Assembly: GCA_003151415.1 (NCBI GenBank) | Contig: PLXK01000205.1 | Span: forward strand, 1-38,391 | Origin: Bacteroidota bacterium | Lineage (GTDB): Bacteria > Bacteroidota > Bacteroidia > Palsa-965 | DNA: 38,391 bases | Reading direction: 5' to 3' | Part shown: positions 1-26,787 of the stretch, piece by piece | How the letters are laid out: the number at the start of each line of letters is the position of its first letter | Numbering within the stretch: position 1 is the stretch's first letter | Notes under the pieces: generated by a model | What the model was told of the DNA's origin: nothing | The model's database searches: none | Seen by the model: the letters and a program-made list of their open reading frames with translations, nothing else | Made by a program: the position numbers and the translations under genes

Positions 1-380
1 TAAATGGAACCCTTGCCCTGTTGAATGACGCCGGAGGCATCAATCCTGTCAGAGACTTCACTCATTAAATGAACCTATTGTCCTGCCGAATGATGCCAGA
101 GGCTTCACGCATTAGATGAGCCTATTGTTCTGTTAATTGACGCCAGAGGCTTCACCCGATAAATGGAACCCTTGCCCTGTTGAATGACGCCGGAGGCATC
201 AATCCTGTCAGAGACTTCACTCATTAAATGAACCTATTGTCCTGCTGAATGATGCCAGAGGCTTCAATCTTGTCTGAGGCTTCACTCATTAAATGCGCCT
301 GCTTGTCTGTTAAATGATGCCAGAGGCATCACACATTTGTAAAAATTGCCCAGCCCCATTTTTCGACTCCGGAGGAGTCG
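1..380. repeat. Array of seven short palindromic repeats
   Basis: Seven cores of the form GAYGCC-RGA-GGCWTC start at about 27, 92, 139, 186, 251, 316 and 365. The cores at 316 (GATGCC/GGCATC) and 365 (GACTCC/GGAGTC) are perfect palindromes. Core-to-core distances are 65, 47, 47, 65, 65 and 49 bases, so two unit lengths occur; the longer form carries an extra 18 bases containing a degenerate half core. Positions 1-107 and 160-266 are almost identical (one mismatch seen), so a three-unit block of 159 bases was itself duplicated. The array lies downstream of aroB and contains no plausible gene. It continues beyond the window's left edge. It resembles dispersed palindromic intergenic repeats that I recall from Bacteroidota genomes; function unknown. 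Confidence 0.85.
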
Positions 381-15605: not shown

Positions 15606-16916
15606 TTGCTTTCCTTTTTGAAGAAGAAGAATAGTCTGTTTAAAATTGCAAACGGCACGAACAAACAAGAACAAATCCCCGCAATGGCCGACGATATACG
15701 AAGTAAGCAGGAGGTGTCAAGACCGAAGATAAAGGACATTAAATTGAGTTCCATTCTGGAAGTCACCAAAGCCATTAACAGCAATTTCTCAACCGAAAAA
15801 CTGCTCGAAATCTTCGAAAGCATGCTCAAGAACCAGCTCAATATCGGGAAGCTGGTGCTTTTCAGTTTCGATGCGGGCTGGAAATGTGTTCTCAAATATG
15901 GGGTTGAAGAAGAAATGGCAAACATTGATGTCACCAGAGAGTTTGGTCACATCAAGGAAATAAGCACCATCGATTACACTTCATCCGCTTCCAACCACAC
16001 CTTCGAAATCGTCATCCCCGTTTACCATAAATCCAGTCCGCTGGCCTACGTCCTTATCGGCGATCTGAATGAAGATAAACTCGAGGTGAGTGCGGCCATC
16101 AAGCATCTGCCTTTTGTACAGACCCTGGCCAACATCATTGTGGTGGCCATTGAAAACAAGAAACTGGCAAAAGAAAATATCCGGCAGGCAGCCATGAGCA
16201 AGGAGCTTGAACTGGCTTCCGAAATGCAGAATATGCTTTTCCCCAGCAAATTGCCTGACAATCATCTTTTGCAGATCAGCGCCTATTATCTGCCGCACCA
16301 GCAGGTAGGCGGCGACTACTATGATTTTATTCAGATTGACGAAAACGAAATTGCCTTTTGTATGGCTGACGTATCCGGAAAAGGTGTTCCTGCCGCCCTG
16401 CTCATGTCAAACTTCCAGGCCAATCTGCGGATATTGTTGAATCACATGTCTTCCCTGACCGATCTGGTCAAAGAACTCAACAGCAAGGTTATGCAGAATG
16501 CCAAGGGTGAAAAATTCATCACGCTCTTCATCGCCAAATACAACATTGTCACCAAAATGCTGACTTATATCAATGCAGGTCATAACCCTCCGCTTCTGGC
16601 TACGAAAAACAGCATGTCCATGCTTCGGGTTGGTTGTACCGGCCTGGGCATGTTTGATGACCTGAACAAAGTGAAAGAAGGAGTTATCAGCATCGATCCC
16701 GGTTCTGTCATCGTATGTTATACCGATGGTGTTGTGGAGATCGAAAACGAGCAGGAAGAGGAATTCGGTGTCAAATTGCTGAAAGAAACCGTCCGGGCCG
16801 AATTCGATTCAAGCATGGAAACGCTCAATCAAAAAATCATTTCAGACGTGATCAGTCACAAAGGCAACATGCCCTACATTGACGATATCGCATTATTCAG
16901 TTGCAGGATGTTCTGA
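15606..16916 (+). CDS. GAF-like sensor with SpoIIE-type PP2C serine phosphatase domain
   Basis: The product (up to 436 residues) has a Lys-rich N-terminus, a GAF-like sensory region (about 45-190), a linker helix (ELASEMQNMLFP) and a C-terminal PP2C/SpoIIE phosphatase domain (about 210-435). The phosphatase motifs GGDYYDF, MADVSGKGVPAALLMS, NAGHNPPLL, CYTDGVVE and YIDDIALF contain the metal-binding Asp residues. Such proteins often dephosphorylate anti-sigma-factor antagonists, but no partner gene is nearby. The start is uncertain: a TTG at 15606 gives a plausible N-terminus (MLSFLKKK), while the first ATG is at 15684. The promoter at 15534-15563 allows either. The 3' end overlaps the convergent ligase gene by 24 bases. 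Confidence 0.88.
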   Translation: MLSFLKKKNSLFKIANGTNKQEQIPAMADDIRSKQEVSRPKIKDIKLSSILEVTKAINSNFSTEKLLEIFESMLKNQLNIGKLVLFSFDAGWKCVLKYGVEEEMANIDVTREFGHIKEISTIDYTSSASNHTFEIVIPVYHKSSPLAYVLIGDLNEDKLEVSAAIKHLPFVQTLANIIVVAIENKKLAKENIRQAAMSKELELASEMQNMLFPSKLPDNHLLQISAYYLPHQQVGGDYYDFIQIDENEIAFCMADVSGKGVPAALLMSNFQANLRILLNHMSSLTDLVKELNSKVMQNAKGEKFITLFIAKYNIVTKMLTYINAGHNPPLLATKNSMSMLRVGCTGLGMFDDLNKVKEGVISIDPGSVIVCYTDGVVEIENEQEEEFGVKLLKETVRAEFDSSMETLNQKIISDVISHKGNMPYIDDIALFSCRMF

Positions 16917-18377
16917 TTGCAGAGGCAGCAGGGTATCGCTGCCTTTGTCTTTGTGGTAAATATCTGCCGCCACCAAAATGGCGATAAAGCCCCAGAATGG
17001 TACAGAAGCCTTGTCTGTATCCAGAAAATTGTTCAATCCGCCATGTACCATGTAGGTGACAAGTCCAAGCAGAACAGCAAGTGTTGTTGTCCGCAAATCG
17101 CCGCGTGGCAATGAATGAAACAAACGGGATCCCGTCCAGAGCACGCAAACAAGAATGGCTATAAAAGACAGAGCCCCCGGAATTCCGGATTCACACAAAG
17201 GGCCTATGTATTCGCTGTGCGCATTGCCCTTATCCCCTGCATTGGTACTGATTGTTGTCCGTTCGCTTGACAATTGAAAAGGAGCGTATAAAAAACTGTA
17301 AGTTCCCGGGCCCCAGCCCAGAAAGGGACGCTGGTTAAACATGCGCAGGGCGGAATGCCACCGGTTCAGCCTTTCGAGGTTCGAGGCATCTGTCGATATA
17401 TTGGAAATCGATTGCACGTGTTCGGTAAGGTTTGAAGAGGAATCCTGGCGGTTTTTTTCAAGTTTCATCACCAGGTCGCTCCACATCATGGTCAGAATAA
17501 TGGACACGGCTGCAAGTGAAATGACAAAGGTCTTGAATCCGATTTTCATCATGTAAATGACCAGCAGCGCCAGGGCCACGATGAGGCTCACCCAGGCAGC
17601 ACGGGTATACGAGAAGATCAGGGCAACCGTAAAAACAGCAAACAGCATCACCGAAAAGATCCGGCTTCCGGCAGAAAGAGAGCGGTTAAAAACAAAGGAA
17701 ACGACAAGCGGGAAGAACATGGCCAGCAGGGCGCCATAAGCCGTGTGGTCATTGAAAAAAGGCGACATGACCCAATGCGCCGCATCCTCTTTGAAACCCA
17801 GCTGGGCATGGTTGTACAAAGTATACAAAATGATCATGACAAATGGAATGATGTACAGCCAGGCAAACTTCCGGATGTTCTTGATGTTGGAAAACATCTG
17901 AACACCGATAAAATAAAAGCAGACAACAAACCACAACCTTGCCAGCAGGAATTTGAACGAAATAACGGGCAATTCGCTGGTTATGCAGGTAATGAATATC
18001 CAGATCAGATTGACAAGAACGTCAATGGTTACCGGATGATGCAGGATGCGCCTGTCGTAATTTCCTTCATACAGAATCCGGAAGAAATAAAGAAGCATAA
18101 CCCCGATCATCAGCGGTTCGGTTGGAATACTAAGTCCCAGCCGGATATCCTGATCGGTGAGATTGATCGACAGGGGCGTAAAGAAAACGATAATCAGAAG
18201 CAGGGTGTCTACCGAAACAAAAGCGAGATAAACAACGATGATGATAACCGGCAACAGATTGAGCCAGTAGAACTCATAAAAGCAGCAGAGTGCATTGACA
18301 ACCACAAAGGCTGCGCTCAAACTGTAGATCCAGCGTGTTTTTAACTGGTCAGTCAATTGATCCGGATTTCCTGTCAA
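16893..18377 (-). CDS. O-antigen ligase/polymerase family membrane protein
   Basis: The 494-residue product has about a dozen hydrophobic segments and a large periplasmic loop late in the protein (about 300-400). That loop contains WGPGTYSFLYAPF and KGNAHSEYIGPLCESG. The H-S-E-x-x-G-x-x-x-E-x-G pattern is typical of the Wzy/WaaL family, which polymerises or ligates surface glycans in the periplasm. Sequence cannot separate ligase from polymerase. The only reasonable start is a TTG at 18377, since no ATG precedes an upstream stop in this frame. It is the last gene of a minus-strand polysaccharide block, 107 bases after the second Wzz-like gene, and its 3' end overlaps the convergent phosphatase gene. 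Confidence 0.88.
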   Translation of the reverse strand: MTGNPDQLTDQLKTRWIYSLSAAFVVVNALCCFYEFYWLNLLPVIIIVVYLAFVSVDTLLLIIVFFTPLSINLTDQDIRLGLSIPTEPLMIGVMLLYFFRILYEGNYDRRILHHPVTIDVLVNLIWIFITCITSELPVISFKFLLARLWFVVCFYFIGVQMFSNIKNIRKFAWLYIIPFVMIILYTLYNHAQLGFKEDAAHWVMSPFFNDHTAYGALLAMFFPLVVSFVFNRSLSAGSRIFSVMLFAVFTVALIFSYTRAAWVSLIVALALLVIYMMKIGFKTFVISLAAVSIILTMMWSDLVMKLEKNRQDSSSNLTEHVQSISNISTDASNLERLNRWHSALRMFNQRPFLGWGPGTYSFLYAPFQLSSERTTISTNAGDKGNAHSEYIGPLCESGIPGALSFIAILVCVLWTGSRLFHSLPRGDLRTTTLAVLLGLVTYMVHGGLNNFLDTDKASVPFWGFIAILVAADIYHKDKGSDTLLPLQSEHPATE

Positions 18378-18484: not shown

Positions 18485-19441
18485 TTATTTGAACTTGGTA
18501 AAAACCTCTTTGTTTTCCACGGCAACGATGACCAGCAGAGAAAAGACAAAAGCCGACACAGCGAAAATACAAATGATCACCCATCTGACGGGAGAAGATT
18601 TTTTATCGGCGGGATAAGGCTTCGCAACCAGGTTGGCATATGTCAGCACCTTGCGGCTGTCGCTGATGGCATAATCGTACTTGATGCGGGTTTCTGCATA
18701 AGTCTCGAATGCTTTCTGGTGCATTTGTTTCAGAGAAACCGACTCGGCACCTTTCTCCTCCAGATTTCGCATCACCGCATCCAGCTCCTTCAGGCTTTCT
18801 TTCGATCCGCTGGAAGTGATGAGCTTATAATACCGTTTCAGTGCTTCTTTACTTTGAATATAGTAATCCAGCAATCCGTATTTTTCGCGCAGCACGCGCA
18901 GCGCCGTTTCGAGAGAATCAATCTGTACGCGTTTGAATTCAAGCTGATCCTTCAGCAAGCGGACCACCTCCATGGTTTTGATCCGCTGAATGGTCCGGGC
19001 TTTCTGATTCATCAGATTGATGAGCGTATCCACCATGTTGCACGCCAGCTGGGGATCCGTATCCATGATGTCTATCCGAACCGATTCAAATTCTGTCCGG
19101 CGGATATCCACATTTTCATTGTAGGTATCATACAGGCTGGACATGGCTCCTTTTTTAGTCAGATCCACCTGATAACGCTCGGCGAGGTTAAAACGGTCGC
19201 ATATGGATTTTCGGATATCGGCAGACTGGAACAACTGCAGCATTTGTTCGGTAGCGGTTTCATTGCCATAGGGAGTCAGATTGGCCGGGTACAGAATGGC
19301 AGTAGATTTAAACTTGGGTTTGATGAACCATTCGCAGGACAAGAAGGCACCCAGACAGGCGGCAATGATGACAATGATCCCCAGCTGGAGTTTCCATTTG
19401 TACAACGTCCGGAGAAAAGAGAAATTGTTTAATTCACTCAC
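18485..19441 (-). CDS. Wzz-like chain-length determinant, second of a tandem pair
   Basis: The 318-residue product has an N-terminal membrane segment (about 14-36), a long periplasmic region with coiled-coil character, and a C-terminal membrane segment (about 283-306) preceded by SSPVRW. This is the topology of Wzz/polysaccharide co-polymerases, which set glycan chain length in the inner membrane. There is no cytoplasmic tyrosine-kinase domain. It is a paralogue of the gene immediately upstream, sharing the segments EQMLQ, CDRFNL and RTEF. Its GTG start overlaps the upstream stop by four bases (19438-19441), so the pair is translationally coupled. Confidence 0.85.
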   Translation of the reverse strand: MSELNNFSFLRTLYKWKLQLGIIVIIAACLGAFLSCEWFIKPKFKSTAILYPANLTPYGNETATEQMLQLFQSADIRKSICDRFNLAERYQVDLTKKGAMSSLYDTYNENVDIRRTEFESVRIDIMDTDPQLACNMVDTLINLMNQKARTIQRIKTMEVVRLLKDQLEFKRVQIDSLETALRVLREKYGLLDYYIQSKEALKRYYKLITSSGSKESLKELDAVMRNLEEKGAESVSLKQMHQKAFETYAETRIKYDYAISDSRKVLTYANLVAKPYPADKKSSPVRWVIICIFAVSAFVFSLLVIVAVENKEVFTKFK

Positions 19442-20463
19442 AGTTTTTCTGTTTTACGGAAGCGATTGATGCTATCCAGAATGATTATGCAAATTATGGC
19501 AATAAGCAGCGCAGAAGAAGTGGAACCGGCCACGACAACCCATCTGACGGGATATGATTTTTTTTCGGCAGGGAAAGCATTGTTGACAATAAACTTGTGC
19601 GGGATCTCCTGTTCGGCATCCACCTTGGCTTCCTCATATTTATTCTTCAGCATATTGAGCTGTTTGGTCTGCAATGTAAGGTTATCCCTCACTGCCAGAT
19701 AAGAACTGCCATAACGCGCAATGATTTTCAGTTTTTCTTCCAGCGATTTGATGGCCCTTGCATCTCCCTTGGAAATGGCAATGGCATATTGCTCGCTGGT
19801 AACCGACGACTGCGACTCGTAATCATACATTCCTTTTTCGTTGAGCTTGCTCATCGAGTCGGCAATCATGGCCACATCGGCCTTTTTCATTTGATATTCA
19901 TTCTCCACAATGCGGAATGCCTTGGAAGCACGTTCGCGCTGCATGCGTGTGGTGGTCGAGTCTAAAAGTTCCGCAATGCCATTGGCAATCTTCGAGGCCA
20001 GTGCAGGATCAACATCCAGCACTTCGATCTTCACCGACATAAACTCGGTTCGTTTAAAGGTGATGTTGTTCTGAAACTCATCGTACAATAAAGTGCGCTT
20101 GTACTTGTTGTTGGGGTCGATGTTGTAATGTTTTTCGAGGTTGAAGCGGTCGCACACCTTGGTTCTGATCTCGTCAGAATTCAGGATCTGAAGCATTTGT
20201 TCGGCCTCTTCCTCCGCCCCAAAAACCATCACGTCCTGCTTGGCACTGGGGTTTTCTGAAAGAAGCGCTTTGGAAAGAGAGCTTGTTGTGGCCGGAAACA
20301 TAACCACGGTAGATTTATACCGGTCTGGAATAACATAAGAAACAATTCCGGATACCAGGGCAGCTATAAAAGCCACCAGCAGCAAAGGTTTACGCTTCTG
20401 TAAGAAGAAATAAATCAGGTTGGTCGAATCGAAATCGTTCGACTTTCCGGTATCATTCGTCAT
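19438..20463 (-). CDS. Wzz-like chain-length determinant, first of a tandem pair
   Basis: The 341-residue product has two membrane segments (about 28-50 and 308-332) flanking a periplasmic coiled-coil region, with SYPVRW just before the second segment. These are hallmarks of Wzz/PCP proteins. The family controls the length of O-antigen or capsule-like glycans together with a Wzy polymerase. It lacks a kinase domain. The ATG at 20463 is preceded by a perfect minus-strand -7 motif at 20497-20504. It is co-transcribed with the second Wzz-like gene and probably the ligase. A 188-base gap separates it from the flippase gene upstream. Confidence 0.87.
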   Translation of the reverse strand: MTNDTGKSNDFDSTNLIYFFLQKRKPLLLVAFIAALVSGIVSYVIPDRYKSTVVMFPATTSSLSKALLSENPSAKQDVMVFGAEEEAEQMLQILNSDEIRTKVCDRFNLEKHYNIDPNNKYKRTLLYDEFQNNITFKRTEFMSVKIEVLDVDPALASKIANGIAELLDSTTTRMQRERASKAFRIVENEYQMKKADVAMIADSMSKLNEKGMYDYESQSSVTSEQYAIAISKGDARAIKSLEEKLKIIARYGSSYLAVRDNLTLQTKQLNMLKNKYEEAKVDAEQEIPHKFIVNNAFPAEKKSYPVRWVVVAGSTSSALLIAIICIIILDSINRFRKTEKL

Positions 20464-20651: not shown

Positions 20652-22340
20652 CTAGCCATACTTCAGCATTCTGAACATCGACTTGATGCTGATTTGCCTG
20701 ATGAGGAAAGCCCAGCAGACGCAGGCAGCTGACATAAGAACAAAATTGGCCAGCCAGCGGTGGTGATCTTCATGATAGGCAAACATTTTGGAAAGAATAT
20801 TGATACCGATAACCCCGACAATGAATACGGCCAGGGTGATGAGCAAACGGTAATTGACCCTGAACCGGAAGATGCGTTGGGCAATGAGAATCTGGGCCAG
20901 AGCCATGATCACCTGGGTAACCAGACTCACATAAGCCGACCCGACGGCATGAAAATAAGGTATCAGGAACATGTTCAGGCTGATATTGATAACCATGCAA
21001 CATCCTGCAAGTGCGTTCAGATGAAGCAGATTTCCATTGGCCGTGAGCAGGGTTCCGAAAATATAATTGGCCGAAATCGCCACAAAACAGCACATCAGAG
21101 GAGCAAAAACAACCGCCGCCTGATCCAGATGATCTTTGTAAATAAGTCCCATGATCTCCCGGCTGTAAAACAGACAGCCCACCGCTATCACAATGGCCGG
21201 AGTGATAATCAGATTAAAAGAAAGCTTCACGAGCGATTCGACCGACTCCTTGTATTTCAGCATCCGCGAAAAGGTGGGGAGCAAAATCACCGAAAAGAGA
21301 TAGGCAATCATATTCGTGGCATCGAGTAAACGAAAAGCTTTTGCGTAAATCCCTGCCTGATCCGCTCCGTTTTCCATGGCTTTCTCATCAAGCCGGTCGA
21401 TGGTGGCGCGAAGAATCGCTTCGGCTTTGCGGGCCTCGAATGTTTTCAGTTTTTCAATCTTCAAAGCCAGTTCAGCGTTGTAGCGGGGCATTATCCGCTC
21501 GAGCATCATGCCATCGATCCGGTTGTAAAATGTCATGAGTTCGGTTTTATCGGCCTCTATTGTTCTCAGTTTTTCAATCTTCAGTGCCAGATCAGCATCG
21601 TAACGCGGCAGTATCCTTTCCAGCATAACCCCGTCAATGCGGTTGTAAAAAGTCATGAGCAACACAAGAATGGCAAAGGGGAAACTTTTTTTCAGAATCA
21701 TCAGGGCAAAAGGATAACTCCATTTCAGTTTCAACGTTTCTGTTTTTCCGGCAACAATGACAAAAGCAATGAGCGCGGTGACGAAATAAGCTCCTGTTTG
21801 AATATAGGCAAAGAGCATGATGTCCATTTTGATGCTGAACATATGCCCCCAGAGAATGACCGCACACACCGAAATCATGATCAGCCTGTCGAGCACAGAC
21901 ACTAGGCTGTCTACTTTGAACAAATGCAATCCCTGCAAATTTGAACGCAGGTATAGCACCATGGAAATCAGAAACTGATTGAATCCCAGAAGAAGCAACA
22001 ATTTGGTGAGACGGGTATCGTAACCGATAGCCAGACCCACCACCACTGATCCTAAAATATAAATCAGGGCAAGGATGAGCTTCAAAACAAACAATGCCGA
22101 AAAATGTTTATCCAGCAGGTGATTGTTCTGTGCAATGTTCTTGTTGTTGAAATTGGTGATCCCAAAATCAAGAACGATATTGAGAAGGAAAGAAAAATTG
22201 AGCAGGGCAAAGAACTCGCCGAAATTCTGATTACCAACCTGTTCCTGAACGGCAGGCTCGATGCCAAGCATCCAGAAGGGCTTTACCAGCAGGTTAAAAA
22301 ACAGAAGAATACCAAGGTTGGTAAGAAATTTCTTTTGCAT
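20652..22340 (-). CDS. Wzx-like polysaccharide flippase with internal tandem duplication
   Basis: The 562-residue product is a multi-pass protein of the polysaccharide-transporter/MATE-like group that flips lipid-linked glycan units across the inner membrane. Hydrophobic segments fill residues 1-230 and 335-560. Between them lies an unusual hydrophilic insertion. It contains a 40-residue tandem duplication starting at MTFYNRIDG (229 and again 269), with 31 of 40 positions identical, followed by a charged helical stretch (about 305-325). In relatives I remember, the YNRID...MLER motif occurs once and runs on directly to QAGIYA, so the insertion looks lineage-specific. The frame is intact. It is 90 bases downstream of the FkbM gene. 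Confidence 0.86.
   Translation of the reverse strand: MQKKFLTNLGILLFFNLLVKPFWMLGIEPAVQEQVGNQNFGEFFALLNFSFLLNIVLDFGITNFNNKNIAQNNHLLDKHFSALFVLKLILALIYILGSVVVGLAIGYDTRLTKLLLLLGFNQFLISMVLYLRSNLQGLHLFKVDSLVSVLDRLIMISVCAVILWGHMFSIKMDIMLFAYIQTGAYFVTALIAFVIVAGKTETLKLKWSYPFALMILKKSFPFAILVLLMTFYNRIDGVMLERILPRYDADLALKIEKLRTIEADKTELMTFYNRIDGMMLERIMPRYNAELALKIEKLKTFEARKAEAILRATIDRLDEKAMENGADQAGIYAKAFRLLDATNMIAYLFSVILLPTFSRMLKYKESVESLVKLSFNLIITPAIVIAVGCLFYSREIMGLIYKDHLDQAAVVFAPLMCCFVAISANYIFGTLLTANGNLLHLNALAGCCMVINISLNMFLIPYFHAVGSAYVSLVTQVIMALAQILIAQRIFRFRVNYRLLITLAVFIVGVIGINILSKMFAYHEDHHRWLANFVLMSAACVCWAFLIRQISIKSMFRMLKYG
21417..21656 (-). repeat. 120-bp in-frame tandem duplication within the flippase gene
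   Basis: Copy 1 (21537-21656) and copy 2 (21417-21536) have an exact 120-base period. Each begins with an ATG (Met229 and Met269) and encodes 40 residues. The copies have diverged (9 amino-acid differences), so the duplication is not recent and not an assembly artefact. Confidence 0.9.
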
Positions 22341-22430: not shown

Positions 22431-23174
22431 TCATACCGTCCCTGCTTTGTCCCCGGGCAGAAAAATAAAATTCTGTTTGTTCTGTTTATCAAATTTCACC
22501 AGGGCCGAATTTTCAACCACATGGATGGAATAACCAAGATCTGTAAGAAGTTTAAAACAACGCGTACGGTTCTCATTCTCCCAGAGTTCGATGTATAAAA
22601 CCGGCCGGTGTTTGGTCAGCATTTTCTGCCCGCCTTGCAGGACAAAGAATTCGAAGTTCTCCACATCCATCTTCACACCAGTAATGACAATATTTCCCTG
22701 AAGTTCGGCAAGTCCGTCGAGGGTACGGAGTGCTGTCTTTATTTTTTCACCCTGGTTCTTATCGGGAATAGAATCATGAACAACATGACTGAGTCCCTGC
22801 ATGCGTGCCCCGCCTTCGACCGGCATCACCATCTCTACGGTTCCCTCCTCACTGCCCAATGCACAACTCATCACCAACACATTGCTGAGTTGATAATGTT
22901 TCACGATGCGTTTTAAAGCTTCAATATTCTGCGGCATGGGTTCAAAGGCGATAACATTGCGCCTGGGCTCTCGGGCCAGATGCACCGTCATGATTCCGAT
23001 GTTGGCGCCAATATCAAGGACGGTTCCTTCGCCGGGGATCAAATTCAGAAAATAAAAAAAATCACCTTCTTTCTTATCGCTATGAAGAGTGGAGATTTTA
23101 TATCGGGAAAAGAGATAGAGGTAGTTCCGAAAACCGAACAGAACCTGGAGTATGTATTTTGCGGCGGTCTTCAT
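22431..23174 (-). CDS. FkbM-family SAM-dependent methyltransferase
   Basis: The 247-residue product has a class I methyltransferase fold. Motif I is in VLDIGANIGIMTVHLA (about 55-70), followed by an acidic strand end (AFEPMPQNIEALK) and the later VKMDVENFEFFVLQGG segment characteristic of the FkbM family. Members in polysaccharide loci often methylate sugar hydroxyls, and the flippase, Wzz and ligase neighbours support that role; the substrate is unknown. It is the first gene of the minus-strand polysaccharide block and is divergent from the glycosyltransferase. A perfect minus-strand -7 motif at 23183-23190 lies only 8 bases before the ATG, so the message may be nearly leaderless. Confidence 0.86.
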   Translation of the reverse strand: MKTAAKYILQVLFGFRNYLYLFSRYKISTLHSDKKEGDFFYFLNLIPGEGTVLDIGANIGIMTVHLAREPRRNVIAFEPMPQNIEALKRIVKHYQLSNVLVMSCALGSEEGTVEMVMPVEGGARMQGLSHVVHDSIPDKNQGEKIKTALRTLDGLAELQGNIVITGVKMDVENFEFFVLQGGQKMLTKHRPVLYIELWENENRTRCFKLLTDLGYSIHVVENSALVKFDKQNKQNFIFLPGDKAGTV

Positions 23175-23182
23175 GAGGTTTG

Positions 23183-23190
23183 CAAAAATA
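23183..23190 (-). promoter_or_regulatory. -7 motif close to the FkbM gene start
   Basis: On the minus strand this reads TATTTTTG, matching TAnnTTTG. It ends 8 bases before the ATG at 23174, leaving almost no leader. Confidence 0.35.
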
Positions 23191-23207
23191 TCATAAAAAC
23201 CGGAAGG

Positions 23208-24392
23208 ATGCCATTGATTTCCCTTAATTTCGTTTCCTCACTTTTGCACCTAAGAAGCCAGGATTTGGAAATTGTTGTCAATACACGTCTGCTCATCAAA
23301 GATAAACTCGACGGCATGGGCTGGTTCAGTTTCGAAACCCTGAAACGGATCACCAAAAACCATCCCGAACACCACTTCATTTTTCTCTTCGACCGCGATC
23401 CGGACCCATCGATGATTTTCTCTGACAACATCACCCCTTTAGTTCTTTCACCACAGGCCAGGCATCCTTTCCTTTTCTGGATTTGGTTTGAACTTTCTGT
23501 TGGCGGATTGCTCCGTGATGCCGGGGCCGATCTCTTTCTGTCTCCCGATGGCTATCTTCCGCTTTTCGGAAAAACACGAAAGCTGGCCGTCATACACGAT
23601 CTGAATTTTGCGCATTACCCCAAGGATGTCCCCTGGCTGGTGCGCAAATACTACAATTACTTCTTCCCGAAATTTGCTGCTGTGGCCAGCCGGATTGCCA
23701 CCGTTTCCCAATTTTCAAAACAGGATATTGAAACAACATACGGCATTGATGCCGATAAAATCGATGTGGTTGGCAACGGGGCCGACACCGCTTATGTTCC
23801 ACTGAAGGATGAAATCAAAAAAAAGGTGAGAAAAAAATACGCCCTTGATTGCCCCTACTTTCTGTTTGTAGGCTCCCTTCATCCGCGCAAGAACATCAAA
23901 CGGCTTCTCCAGGCATTCGATTCATTCAGGGAAACGCAGAACTCGGATATCAAATTACTGATCGTGGGTCATCGTTACTGGTGGACTGCCGAACTGGAAA
24001 CCGCTTATACACAGATGAAGCACCGCGGGGAGGTGGTATTTACGGGTCGTCTGCCACAGGAAGAATTGTATATGGTCATGGGTGCGGCATTCGCACTGAC
24101 CTATGTGCCTTATTTTGAAGGATTCGGAATCCCCCTGCTCGAAGCCATGCACTGCGATGTTCCAGTCATCACTTCCAATACATCCTCCTTACCCGAAGTG
24201 GCAGGAGACGCTGCACTTTATGCCGACCCTTTCTCAGTTGAATCCATTTGCCAAACCCTGATCGAACTGGTGAATGATGAGGCCCTTCAAAAAAGGCTGA
24301 TTGAAGCTGGCAGGCAAAGACGAAGTCATTTTTCATGGGATATCACAGCTAAACTGCTGTGGGATTGCATCGAAAAAACGGTTCAGCGATGA
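23208..24392 (+). CDS. GT4-type glycosyltransferase (group 1 family)
   Basis: The product (up to 394 residues) is a GT-B glycosyltransferase. The N-terminal domain begins at EIVVNTRLL. The C-terminal domain shows FVGSLHPRKNIKRLLQAF, the donor-binding EGFGIPLLEAMHCDVPVI segment with the E-x7-E-like pattern, and SSLPEVAGDAALYADP. It probably adds a sugar to a lipid-linked glycan at the inner face of the membrane, in keeping with the adjacent polysaccharide genes. The start is uncertain: the ATG at 23208 adds a 19-residue stretch not typical of the family, while a TTG at 23265 begins exactly at the conserved N-terminus. A possible promoter (TTG 23214-23216, CACTTTTG 23239-23246) would favour the TTG. 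Confidence 0.9.
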   Translation: MPLISLNFVSSLLHLRSQDLEIVVNTRLLIKDKLDGMGWFSFETLKRITKNHPEHHFIFLFDRDPDPSMIFSDNITPLVLSPQARHPFLFWIWFELSVGGLLRDAGADLFLSPDGYLPLFGKTRKLAVIHDLNFAHYPKDVPWLVRKYYNYFFPKFAAVASRIATVSQFSKQDIETTYGIDADKIDVVGNGADTAYVPLKDEIKKKVRKKYALDCPYFLFVGSLHPRKNIKRLLQAFDSFRETQNSDIKLLIVGHRYWWTAELETAYTQMKHRGEVVFTGRLPQEELYMVMGAAFALTYVPYFEGFGIPLLEAMHCDVPVITSNTSSLPEVAGDAALYADPFSVESICQTLIELVNDEALQKRLIEAGRQRRSHFSWDITAKLLWDCIEKTVQR

Positions 24393-24393
24393 G

Positions 24394-24572
24394 CAGTTGG
24401 CAGTTGACAGTTGGCAGTTGGCAGTTGGCAGTTGGCAGTTGGCAGTTGGCAAAGAAAAAAAACAATGCAGAATAGGTGGATGTCTTTGCAGTTTATTAAA
24501 CAACAAAAGTTCGCTTTTTCAAATTTATTTTTACCTTCTTTTTTGCAAACGGGCAACTGCAAATTGCCAACC
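24394..24572. repeat. Heptanucleotide tandem repeat with an inverted partner
   Basis: Eight copies of the 7-mer CAGTTGG (one varies as CAGTTGA) run from 24394 to 24449, starting one base after the glycosyltransferase stop. About 100 bases later, 24553-24572 carries the opposite-strand version (GGCAACTGCAAATTGCCAAC), degenerate but recognisable. The pair could fold into a long imperfect stem. The region otherwise holds no gene and fills the gap before rnhB. Confidence 0.75.
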
Positions 24573-25219: not shown

Positions 25220-25521
25220 TTCCTTCTCCCAAACCACGCCGAACGGCCCGGTTTTCCGGAATGGTTTCCCCCTGCTAACCAAAATTGAAGTTTTCCGGTG
25301 AAATTCAATTAACAGATCGATGCCAGTCTTACTAAATTCTAACATCTGCTTGATTTAAAGACGAATGCGAGCTTTTTAGGCACAAATGACGGATAATTTG
25401 AGATGAAATTCCATATGCTTTTATAAAATGATTTTGACGCAATTGTCGGAGTAGGAAAACAGGAATCTGTATGTTAACTTTGAATATCCACAATGTAAAA
25501 TCATTTGTAATTGAATATGCT
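25220..25521. promoter_or_regulatory. Intergenic region with stem-loop and -7 motif before the T9SS cargo gene
   Basis: A stem-loop follows rnhB: AAACCA (25231-25236) pairs with TGGTTT (25262-25267) around an inner CCGG-TTTT-CCGG (25248-25259). It lacks a T run, so termination is uncertain. At 25475-25482, TAACTTTG is an exact -7 match, placing the start of transcription near 25489 and supporting the ATG at 25522 over an in-frame ATG at 25471. I see nothing else here. Confidence 0.5.
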
Positions 25522-26787
25522 ATGAAACATAAACTATTTCTGTTGGCTGCATTCTCATTCACCGTCTGCACAAGCCGGGCGCAGGTGGTCAAAATTCTTT
25601 TTGACGGTTCTCATGCCGAAACCTGCAGCAATTCTGACTGGATTCCGGATTCGGATTTGCATGACATCAGTTTCAGCGGCGGCCCGGCAACGTGCTGCAG
25701 CGGAAACAAATCCGAAGCCCAGCGTTTTCCGACTCCTGCTCAATCTGGAATAACAGCCTCAACTCCCGAAACGTATTGGGAGGGAGGATTGTCTTATTGG
25801 GCCGTGGATTGTGCCAAACACAATTACCAGGTGGAATCTTTGCCCTGGAACGGAAAAATCACGTTCAATGATGTTACCAATGTACAGGATCTCAGCAATT
25901 ACACCATTTTTGTTGTCGACGAACCCAACATTGTTTTCTCTGCCGCTGAAAAGACGGCCATGATGACCTGGATTAAGGAGGGCGGCAGATTGTTCATGAT
26001 TTCTGATCATACCGGATCGGACCGAAACGGTGACGGCTGGGACTCGCCTGCGATCTGGAACGATTTTCTGACCAACAATACTGTCAATTCAAGCAATCCT
26101 TTTGGCATCGCCTTCGACCTGGCCAATTTTTCAGAAACGACCACCAATGTGGCCACATTGCCCGGAGACTCCTGTCTGCACGGACCCATGGGCAATGTAA
26201 CGGAAGCCATGTGGAGCAACGGAACCTCAATGACCATCAATCCCGCTGTCAACCCTGCCGTAACAGGCGTGGTTTACATGACCGCCGCCACCAAAGGAGG
26301 AAATACGGGAGTCATGTTTGCCCACAGCCGGTTTGGGAAAGGCAAAATTGCCGCCATGGGAGACAGCTCGCCACCGGATGATGGCACCGGAAACCCCAGC
26401 TGCACCTTATATACCGGATACTCGGTAGATGCCGCCGGAAACCACCGTCTGCTGATCATGAATGCAACCATCTGGCTGGCGGAAAACGACGGTGTGGCCA
26501 CGGTCATCAATTACGATCAGTCGAAAGTGAAAGATGTCTCTTTCTTTCCAAACCCGGTAGGCGAAACAGCCAATCTGCGTTTCCGTCTGGAGGACAATGA
26601 GCGCCTGAAGGTGAGCATTTGTGATTTATTGGGAAGGGAACTGATGAATGTAAGTGACGAATCGCGCATGGCCGGTGAAAATGGTCTCAGCTTCAGTACG
26701 GCAAACCTGCCTGCAGGCGTTTATTTTTATAAAATTGCAAGTGATTTTGGCGCTGACGTCGGGAAATTCATTGTCGGGCAGCACTAG
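25522..26787 (+). CDS. Exported protein with T9SS type A sorting domain
   Basis: The 421-residue product begins with a signal peptide (about 1-21, ending SRAQ). It ends with a type IX secretion C-terminal domain (about 345-421) that shows FFPNPVGETANLRF, LLGRELM, and LPAGVYFYKI followed by KFIVG. It should therefore be carried to the cell surface or secreted. The central domain has alternating strands and helices with YTIFVVDEPN, GGRLFMISDHTGSD and FGKGKIAAMGDSS. This suggests a class I glutamine-amidotransferase-like or DUF4350-like flavodoxin fold, but I see no clear catalytic triad. Several Cys near the N-terminus (including CC) could form disulfides. Function unknown. A strong terminator follows. 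Confidence 0.88.
   Translation: MKHKLFLLAAFSFTVCTSRAQVVKILFDGSHAETCSNSDWIPDSDLHDISFSGGPATCCSGNKSEAQRFPTPAQSGITASTPETYWEGGLSYWAVDCAKHNYQVESLPWNGKITFNDVTNVQDLSNYTIFVVDEPNIVFSAAEKTAMMTWIKEGGRLFMISDHTGSDRNGDGWDSPAIWNDFLTNNTVNSSNPFGIAFDLANFSETTTNVATLPGDSCLHGPMGNVTEAMWSNGTSMTINPAVNPAVTGVVYMTAATKGGNTGVMFAHSRFGKGKIAAMGDSSPPDDGTGNPSCTLYTGYSVDAAGNHRLLIMNATIWLAENDGVATVINYDQSKVKDVSFFPNPVGETANLRFRLEDNERLKVSICDLLGRELMNVSDESRMAGENGLSFSTANLPAGVYFYKIASDFGADVGKFIVGQH

Follow-up and report, generated by a model that had tools for sequence, protein, structure and literature searches.

An in-frame tandem duplication spanning half of TM7 and part of the TM7-TM8 loop in a Wzx-like flippase of a Bacteroidota bacterium

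The flippase gene and its cassette

The window, a 38,391-nucleotide stretch of contig PLXK01000205.1 (GCA_003151415.1), encodes a Wzx-like flippase of the MOP superfamily, followed by genes for two Wzz-like proteins and a Wzy/O-antigen ligase-like protein (Table 1). The flippase matches PF01943 (E=9.9e-12; 45.3 bits, above the Pfam cut-off of 28.2) and, by simple hydropathy only, has 14 segments with a mean KD above 1.5, which fits the 12 or 14 helices of MOP flippases. Against the WzxE (lipid III flippase) equivalog it reaches 39.5 bits, below the NCBIfam cut-off of 325. The WzxE structures (9g95 and related) are matched by a profile of 20 homologues (E=3.8e-7) and are the only solved relatives found. 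The linkage to Wzz and Wzy genes that serves as a criterion for Wzx was found in both the window and its relatives, in the order flippase-Wzz-Wzz-Wzy_C, and the protein is a putative Wzx of the Wzx/Wzy-dependent pathway, in which it is predicted to flip undecaprenyl-linked glycan units. A scan of genome contigs with the single flippase sequence returned one relative only (L031), and no relatives were found in the viral contigs searched.

Table 1. Coordinates of the flippase, its repeat and the neighbouring cassette genes
Feature	Position	Strand	Basis
Wzx-like MOP-superfamily flippase, 562 aa, 14 hydrophobic segments	20652..22340	-	PF01943, WzxE profile match, hydropathy
Copy 1 of the 40-residue unit, aa 228-267: periplasmic half of TM7 (L228-P245) and first half of the family-specific loop	21540..21659	-	
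Copy 2, aa 268-307: second TM7-half motif LMTFYNRIDGMMLERIMP in a polar context, not membrane-spanning, and loop	21420..21539	-	
Remainder of the family-specific TM7-TM8 loop, aa 308-325, common to congeners	21366..21419	-	Alignment
Wzz-like protein 1, downstream of the flippase in the cassette	19438..20463	-	PF02706 E=2e-5, just under the cut-off; synteny
Wzz-like protein 2	18485..19441	-	Syntenic homologue in L031 matches PF02706 weakly
Wzy/O-antigen ligase-like protein	16893..18377	-	PF04932 E=4.9e-23

A 120-base repeat in the flippase reading frame

The flippase reading frame contains a tandem repeat with a period of exactly 120 bases, free of insertions and deletions (TRF score 309), and no stop or frameshift occurs within the repeat region. 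The exact period and the 31/40 identical residues claimed in the first-pass annotation were reproduced in its register (21417-21656; aa 229-268 and 269-308; 92/120 bases identical), and a shift of one codon improves the match to 95/120 bases and 32/40 residues (21420-21659, minus strand; aa 228-267 and 268-307). The longest exact run common to both copies is 18 bases, and no further copy of the repeat was found elsewhere in the same genome.

The whole repeat had been described as an insertion, a description that fails for the first half of copy 1, which is TM7 itself: the motif LMTFYNRIDGVMLERILP forms the second half of TM7 and is nearly invariant in the family in an alignment with 19 homologues. 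The charged stretch reported after copy 2 is present, but it is the rest of the loop common to family members and not a third copy.

Membrane placement of the two copies

The hydrophobic start of TM7 (FPFAILVLL) stands before copy 1 only, and copy 2 follows IEADKTE. The hydropathy of copy 2 lies far under that of any TM, with an approximate insertion dG of +7.2 where every TM gives a negative value, and the earlier claim of an extramembrane insertion holds for this polar, non-spanning copy. The family consensus residues V238 (74 of 84 homologues) and L244 (76 of 84) are kept in copy 1, and copy 2 has M278 and M284, positions at which Met occurs in 1/84 and 2/84 homologues. Given the polarity of copy 2, which bars it from spanning the membrane, and the hydrophobic TM7 start ahead of copy 1 alone, copy 1 is taken to be the working TM7. 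AlphaFold2 models built from two-sequence alignments reached a pLDDT of 37 for the window protein and 40 for a single-copy orthologue and were set aside as uninformative.

WzxE of E. coli (PDB 9g95 and related) carries loop 7-8 on its periplasmic face, its TM7 turns by ~23 degrees between the inward and outward states, and R44, R239 and D262 form its periplasmic triad (PMC11706664). Its TM7-TM8 region is alignable with that of the window flippase; in the profile alignment, in which chain numbering is one above that of the paper, D262 falls on the invariant D340 and R239/K240 fall on E241/R242, with a second pair, E281/R282, present in copy 2 and equivalent to the WzxE R239 region. Homology to WzxE and the counting of helices suggest that the loop and copy 2 are periplasmic. 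Pseudomonas Wzx has been modelled by homology, with portals towards the outer leaflet at TM1-TM8 and TM2-TM7 (PMC3412221); taken together with the WzxE homology, this indicates that the loop next to such portals has received a copy of the moving helix's periplasmic half.

The window flippase also departs from these known systems. With its 79-residue loop and 14 hydrophobic segments it differs from WzxE, which has a short TM7-TM8 loop and 12 TMs. MurJ and TacF, which share with it the MOP superfamily and a count of 14 (14 helices against 14 segments by hydropathy), give no sequence match between their solved chains and the window flippase at E up to 1, and no duplication of a TM7 half was found described for these 14-helix flippases (PMC13385700). 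A literature search for comparable internal duplications returned nothing relevant.

Loop length and copy number in relatives

The comparison covered 12 genomes of the same family in three genera (11 besides the window genome) and 57 genomes of other families. The TM7-TM8 loop, from P245 to G325, measures 79 residues in the window flippase, 36-40 in the other 11 family genomes and 0-10 in the 57 genomes of other families. Measured between the Met of TM7 and the Tyr of TM8 in 84 homologues, the spacing gives the same order, with 25-35 residues in other families, 62 (65 in one) within the family and 103 in the window flippase. The family-wide loop is thus ~37 residues above that of most other families of the class (e.g. 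L002 739-2301, L007 1501-3072), and its extension varies in sequence among genera but hardly in length.

The first-pass annotation had proposed an alignment with related flippases, and in this alignment the relatives carry one copy: the second copy is present in 0/11 other family members, with a single copy at the homologous place in three congeners and eight further members, so that the same insertion in the same number of copies is not common in the family. The single-copy orthologues (e.g. L002/L031, L003, L004) resemble the window flippase in sequence (84% identity for the nearest), in their cassette and in the same ~37-residue loop extension, but encode the 40-residue unit once where the window flippase encodes it twice. 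The proposal of ~80-90 inserted residues absent from relatives therefore stands for the duplication and falls for the ~37 extra residues found family-wide. As the extension is family-wide and the second copy occurs in one species only, the extension came first and the duplication, private to that species among the compared genomes, was added to it afterwards.

The flippase-Wzz-Wzz-Wzy cassette is the same throughout the family and recurs in several short-loop families (L055, L059, L060, L063, L064), and Wzz length showed no difference between long- and short-loop families. A tie between loop length and the presence of Wzz was considered and rejected, since the Wzz cassette also occurs with short loops; partnership with Wzz thus needs neither the long loop nor the duplication.

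Age of the duplication and selection on the copies

The copies share 80% nucleotide identity with each other against 60-64% with two congeners, and derived residues (ALKIEKL..) common to both copies are absent from the congeners. The dS between the copies is 1.08, and to the congeners it is ~2 or saturated. Because the copies are closer to each other than to the congeners tested, the duplication would most simply postdate the split from the congeners sampled. The earlier view that both copies have been kept over a long divergence agrees with the dS of ~1.1 and with both copies being open and largely conserved.

The dN/dS between the copies, also proposed in the first-pass annotation, is ~0.13 over 40 codons (bootstrap 0-0.30). 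The TM7-derived half (18 codons) carries 9 synonymous-only and 2 replacement differences; when copy 2 was simulated as neutral, at least 16 identical residues were retained in 0.1% of runs, and in 0.7% at an omega of 0.5. Both replacements in the TM7 half of copy 2 are to Met at positions that are rarely Met. The loop half of the unit is relaxed, with an omega of 0.3-1 fitting the data. Two readings fit this pattern: genuine constraint on copy 2, or divergence that preceded the joining of the copies. With counts this small, the pattern is no proof of function.

Explanations for the second copy

The most probable explanation, to which a probability of about 0.7 is assigned, is a lineage-specific in-frame 120-base tandem duplication that is tolerated in the flippase, with copy 1 as the working copy. 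The duplicated unit would span from mid-TM7 into a periplasmic TM7-TM8 loop that was already ~37 residues longer in the family; copy 1, continuing the hydrophobic start of TM7, would be the working gating helix, and copy 2, unable to span the membrane, would sit in the periplasm and bring the TM7-TM8 connection to ~79 residues. Copy 2 probably forms a helical segment that rests on the surface of the membrane or folds into a hairpin close to where the lobes open outward, and is most likely tolerated under mild structural constraint, with the transport mechanism presumably unchanged. Against mere tolerance, its TM7 half is more conserved than a tolerated extra would be.

This conservation would need no selection on copy 2 if the same 40 codons of two related lineages had been brought together, by unequal recombination or a faulty assembly join, as the differences would then have arisen while each allele was single-copy. 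Such an origin is unlikely, although it explains the synonymous-rich TM7 half and the source is one draft genome of 268 contigs and 84.5% completeness. It sits poorly with the exact frame and period, and with the shortness of the exact matches between the copies, which extend to 18 bases at most and to only ~8 at the join, probably too little for the usual assemblers to make a k-mer mis-join, though other assembly errors are possible. The Met residues at the 1/84 and 2/84 positions would be unexpected in an intact single-copy allele. The N and C parts of the flippase relate alike to the congeners, although two sister lineages would still fit, and the GC content of its N-part is somewhat lower (0.42 vs 0.48), yet the genes on both flanks are alike (0.458 and 0.458).

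Alternatively, purifying selection could be preserving the copied periplasmic half of TM7 as an additional element in the periplasm that helps in gating or in releasing the product, acting as a second gate that docks, for example, at the outward-open cleft or at the released glycan pyrophosphate. Strong protein-level constraint on this half would favour such a role, provided that the divergence came after the duplication, as would its conserved N-R-I-D and E-R residues, including the E281/R282 pair. The role is nevertheless doubtful, for a single genome has the second copy, two positions that rank among the most conserved are altered in it, and all other family members work with a single copy.

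The first-pass annotation had pictured the insertion as a coiled-coil platform serving the Wzz proteins or a glycosyltransferase. Contact with Wzz would be possible in principle, as Wzz has a domain in the periplasm and two genes for Wzz-like proteins follow immediately downstream; glycosyltransferases are on the cytoplasmic side. The amphipathic helical moment of the loop was not above that of shuffled sequences, which lends a coiled coil no support, and the occurrence of the cassette with short loops and the lack of a difference in Wzz length speak against service to Wzz. Because loop 7-8 is periplasmic by homology to WzxE (PMC11706664), a cytoplasmic glycosyltransferase is ruled out as a partner. 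The platform is accordingly highly improbable.

In MOP flippases the TM7-TM8 connection adjoins the periplasmic opening, and in WzxE it is TM7 that moves. A family with long loops and one species in which half of TM7 has been copied into the loop offer a natural insertion experiment on the tolerance of this hinge; should the copy be no more than tolerated, it would count as an ordinary internal duplication.

Other features of the window

An eight-copy array of the heptamer GCAGTTG (24393-24451) lies directly past the stop of a glycosyltransferase gene (22980-24392), and two congeners (L046, L048) showed no tandem array in the equivalent regions. The left end of the window (50-331) holds overlapping tandem arrays with periods of 47 and 65, and the protein encoded at 25471-26787 ends in a C-terminal sorting domain of type IX secretion (PF18962).
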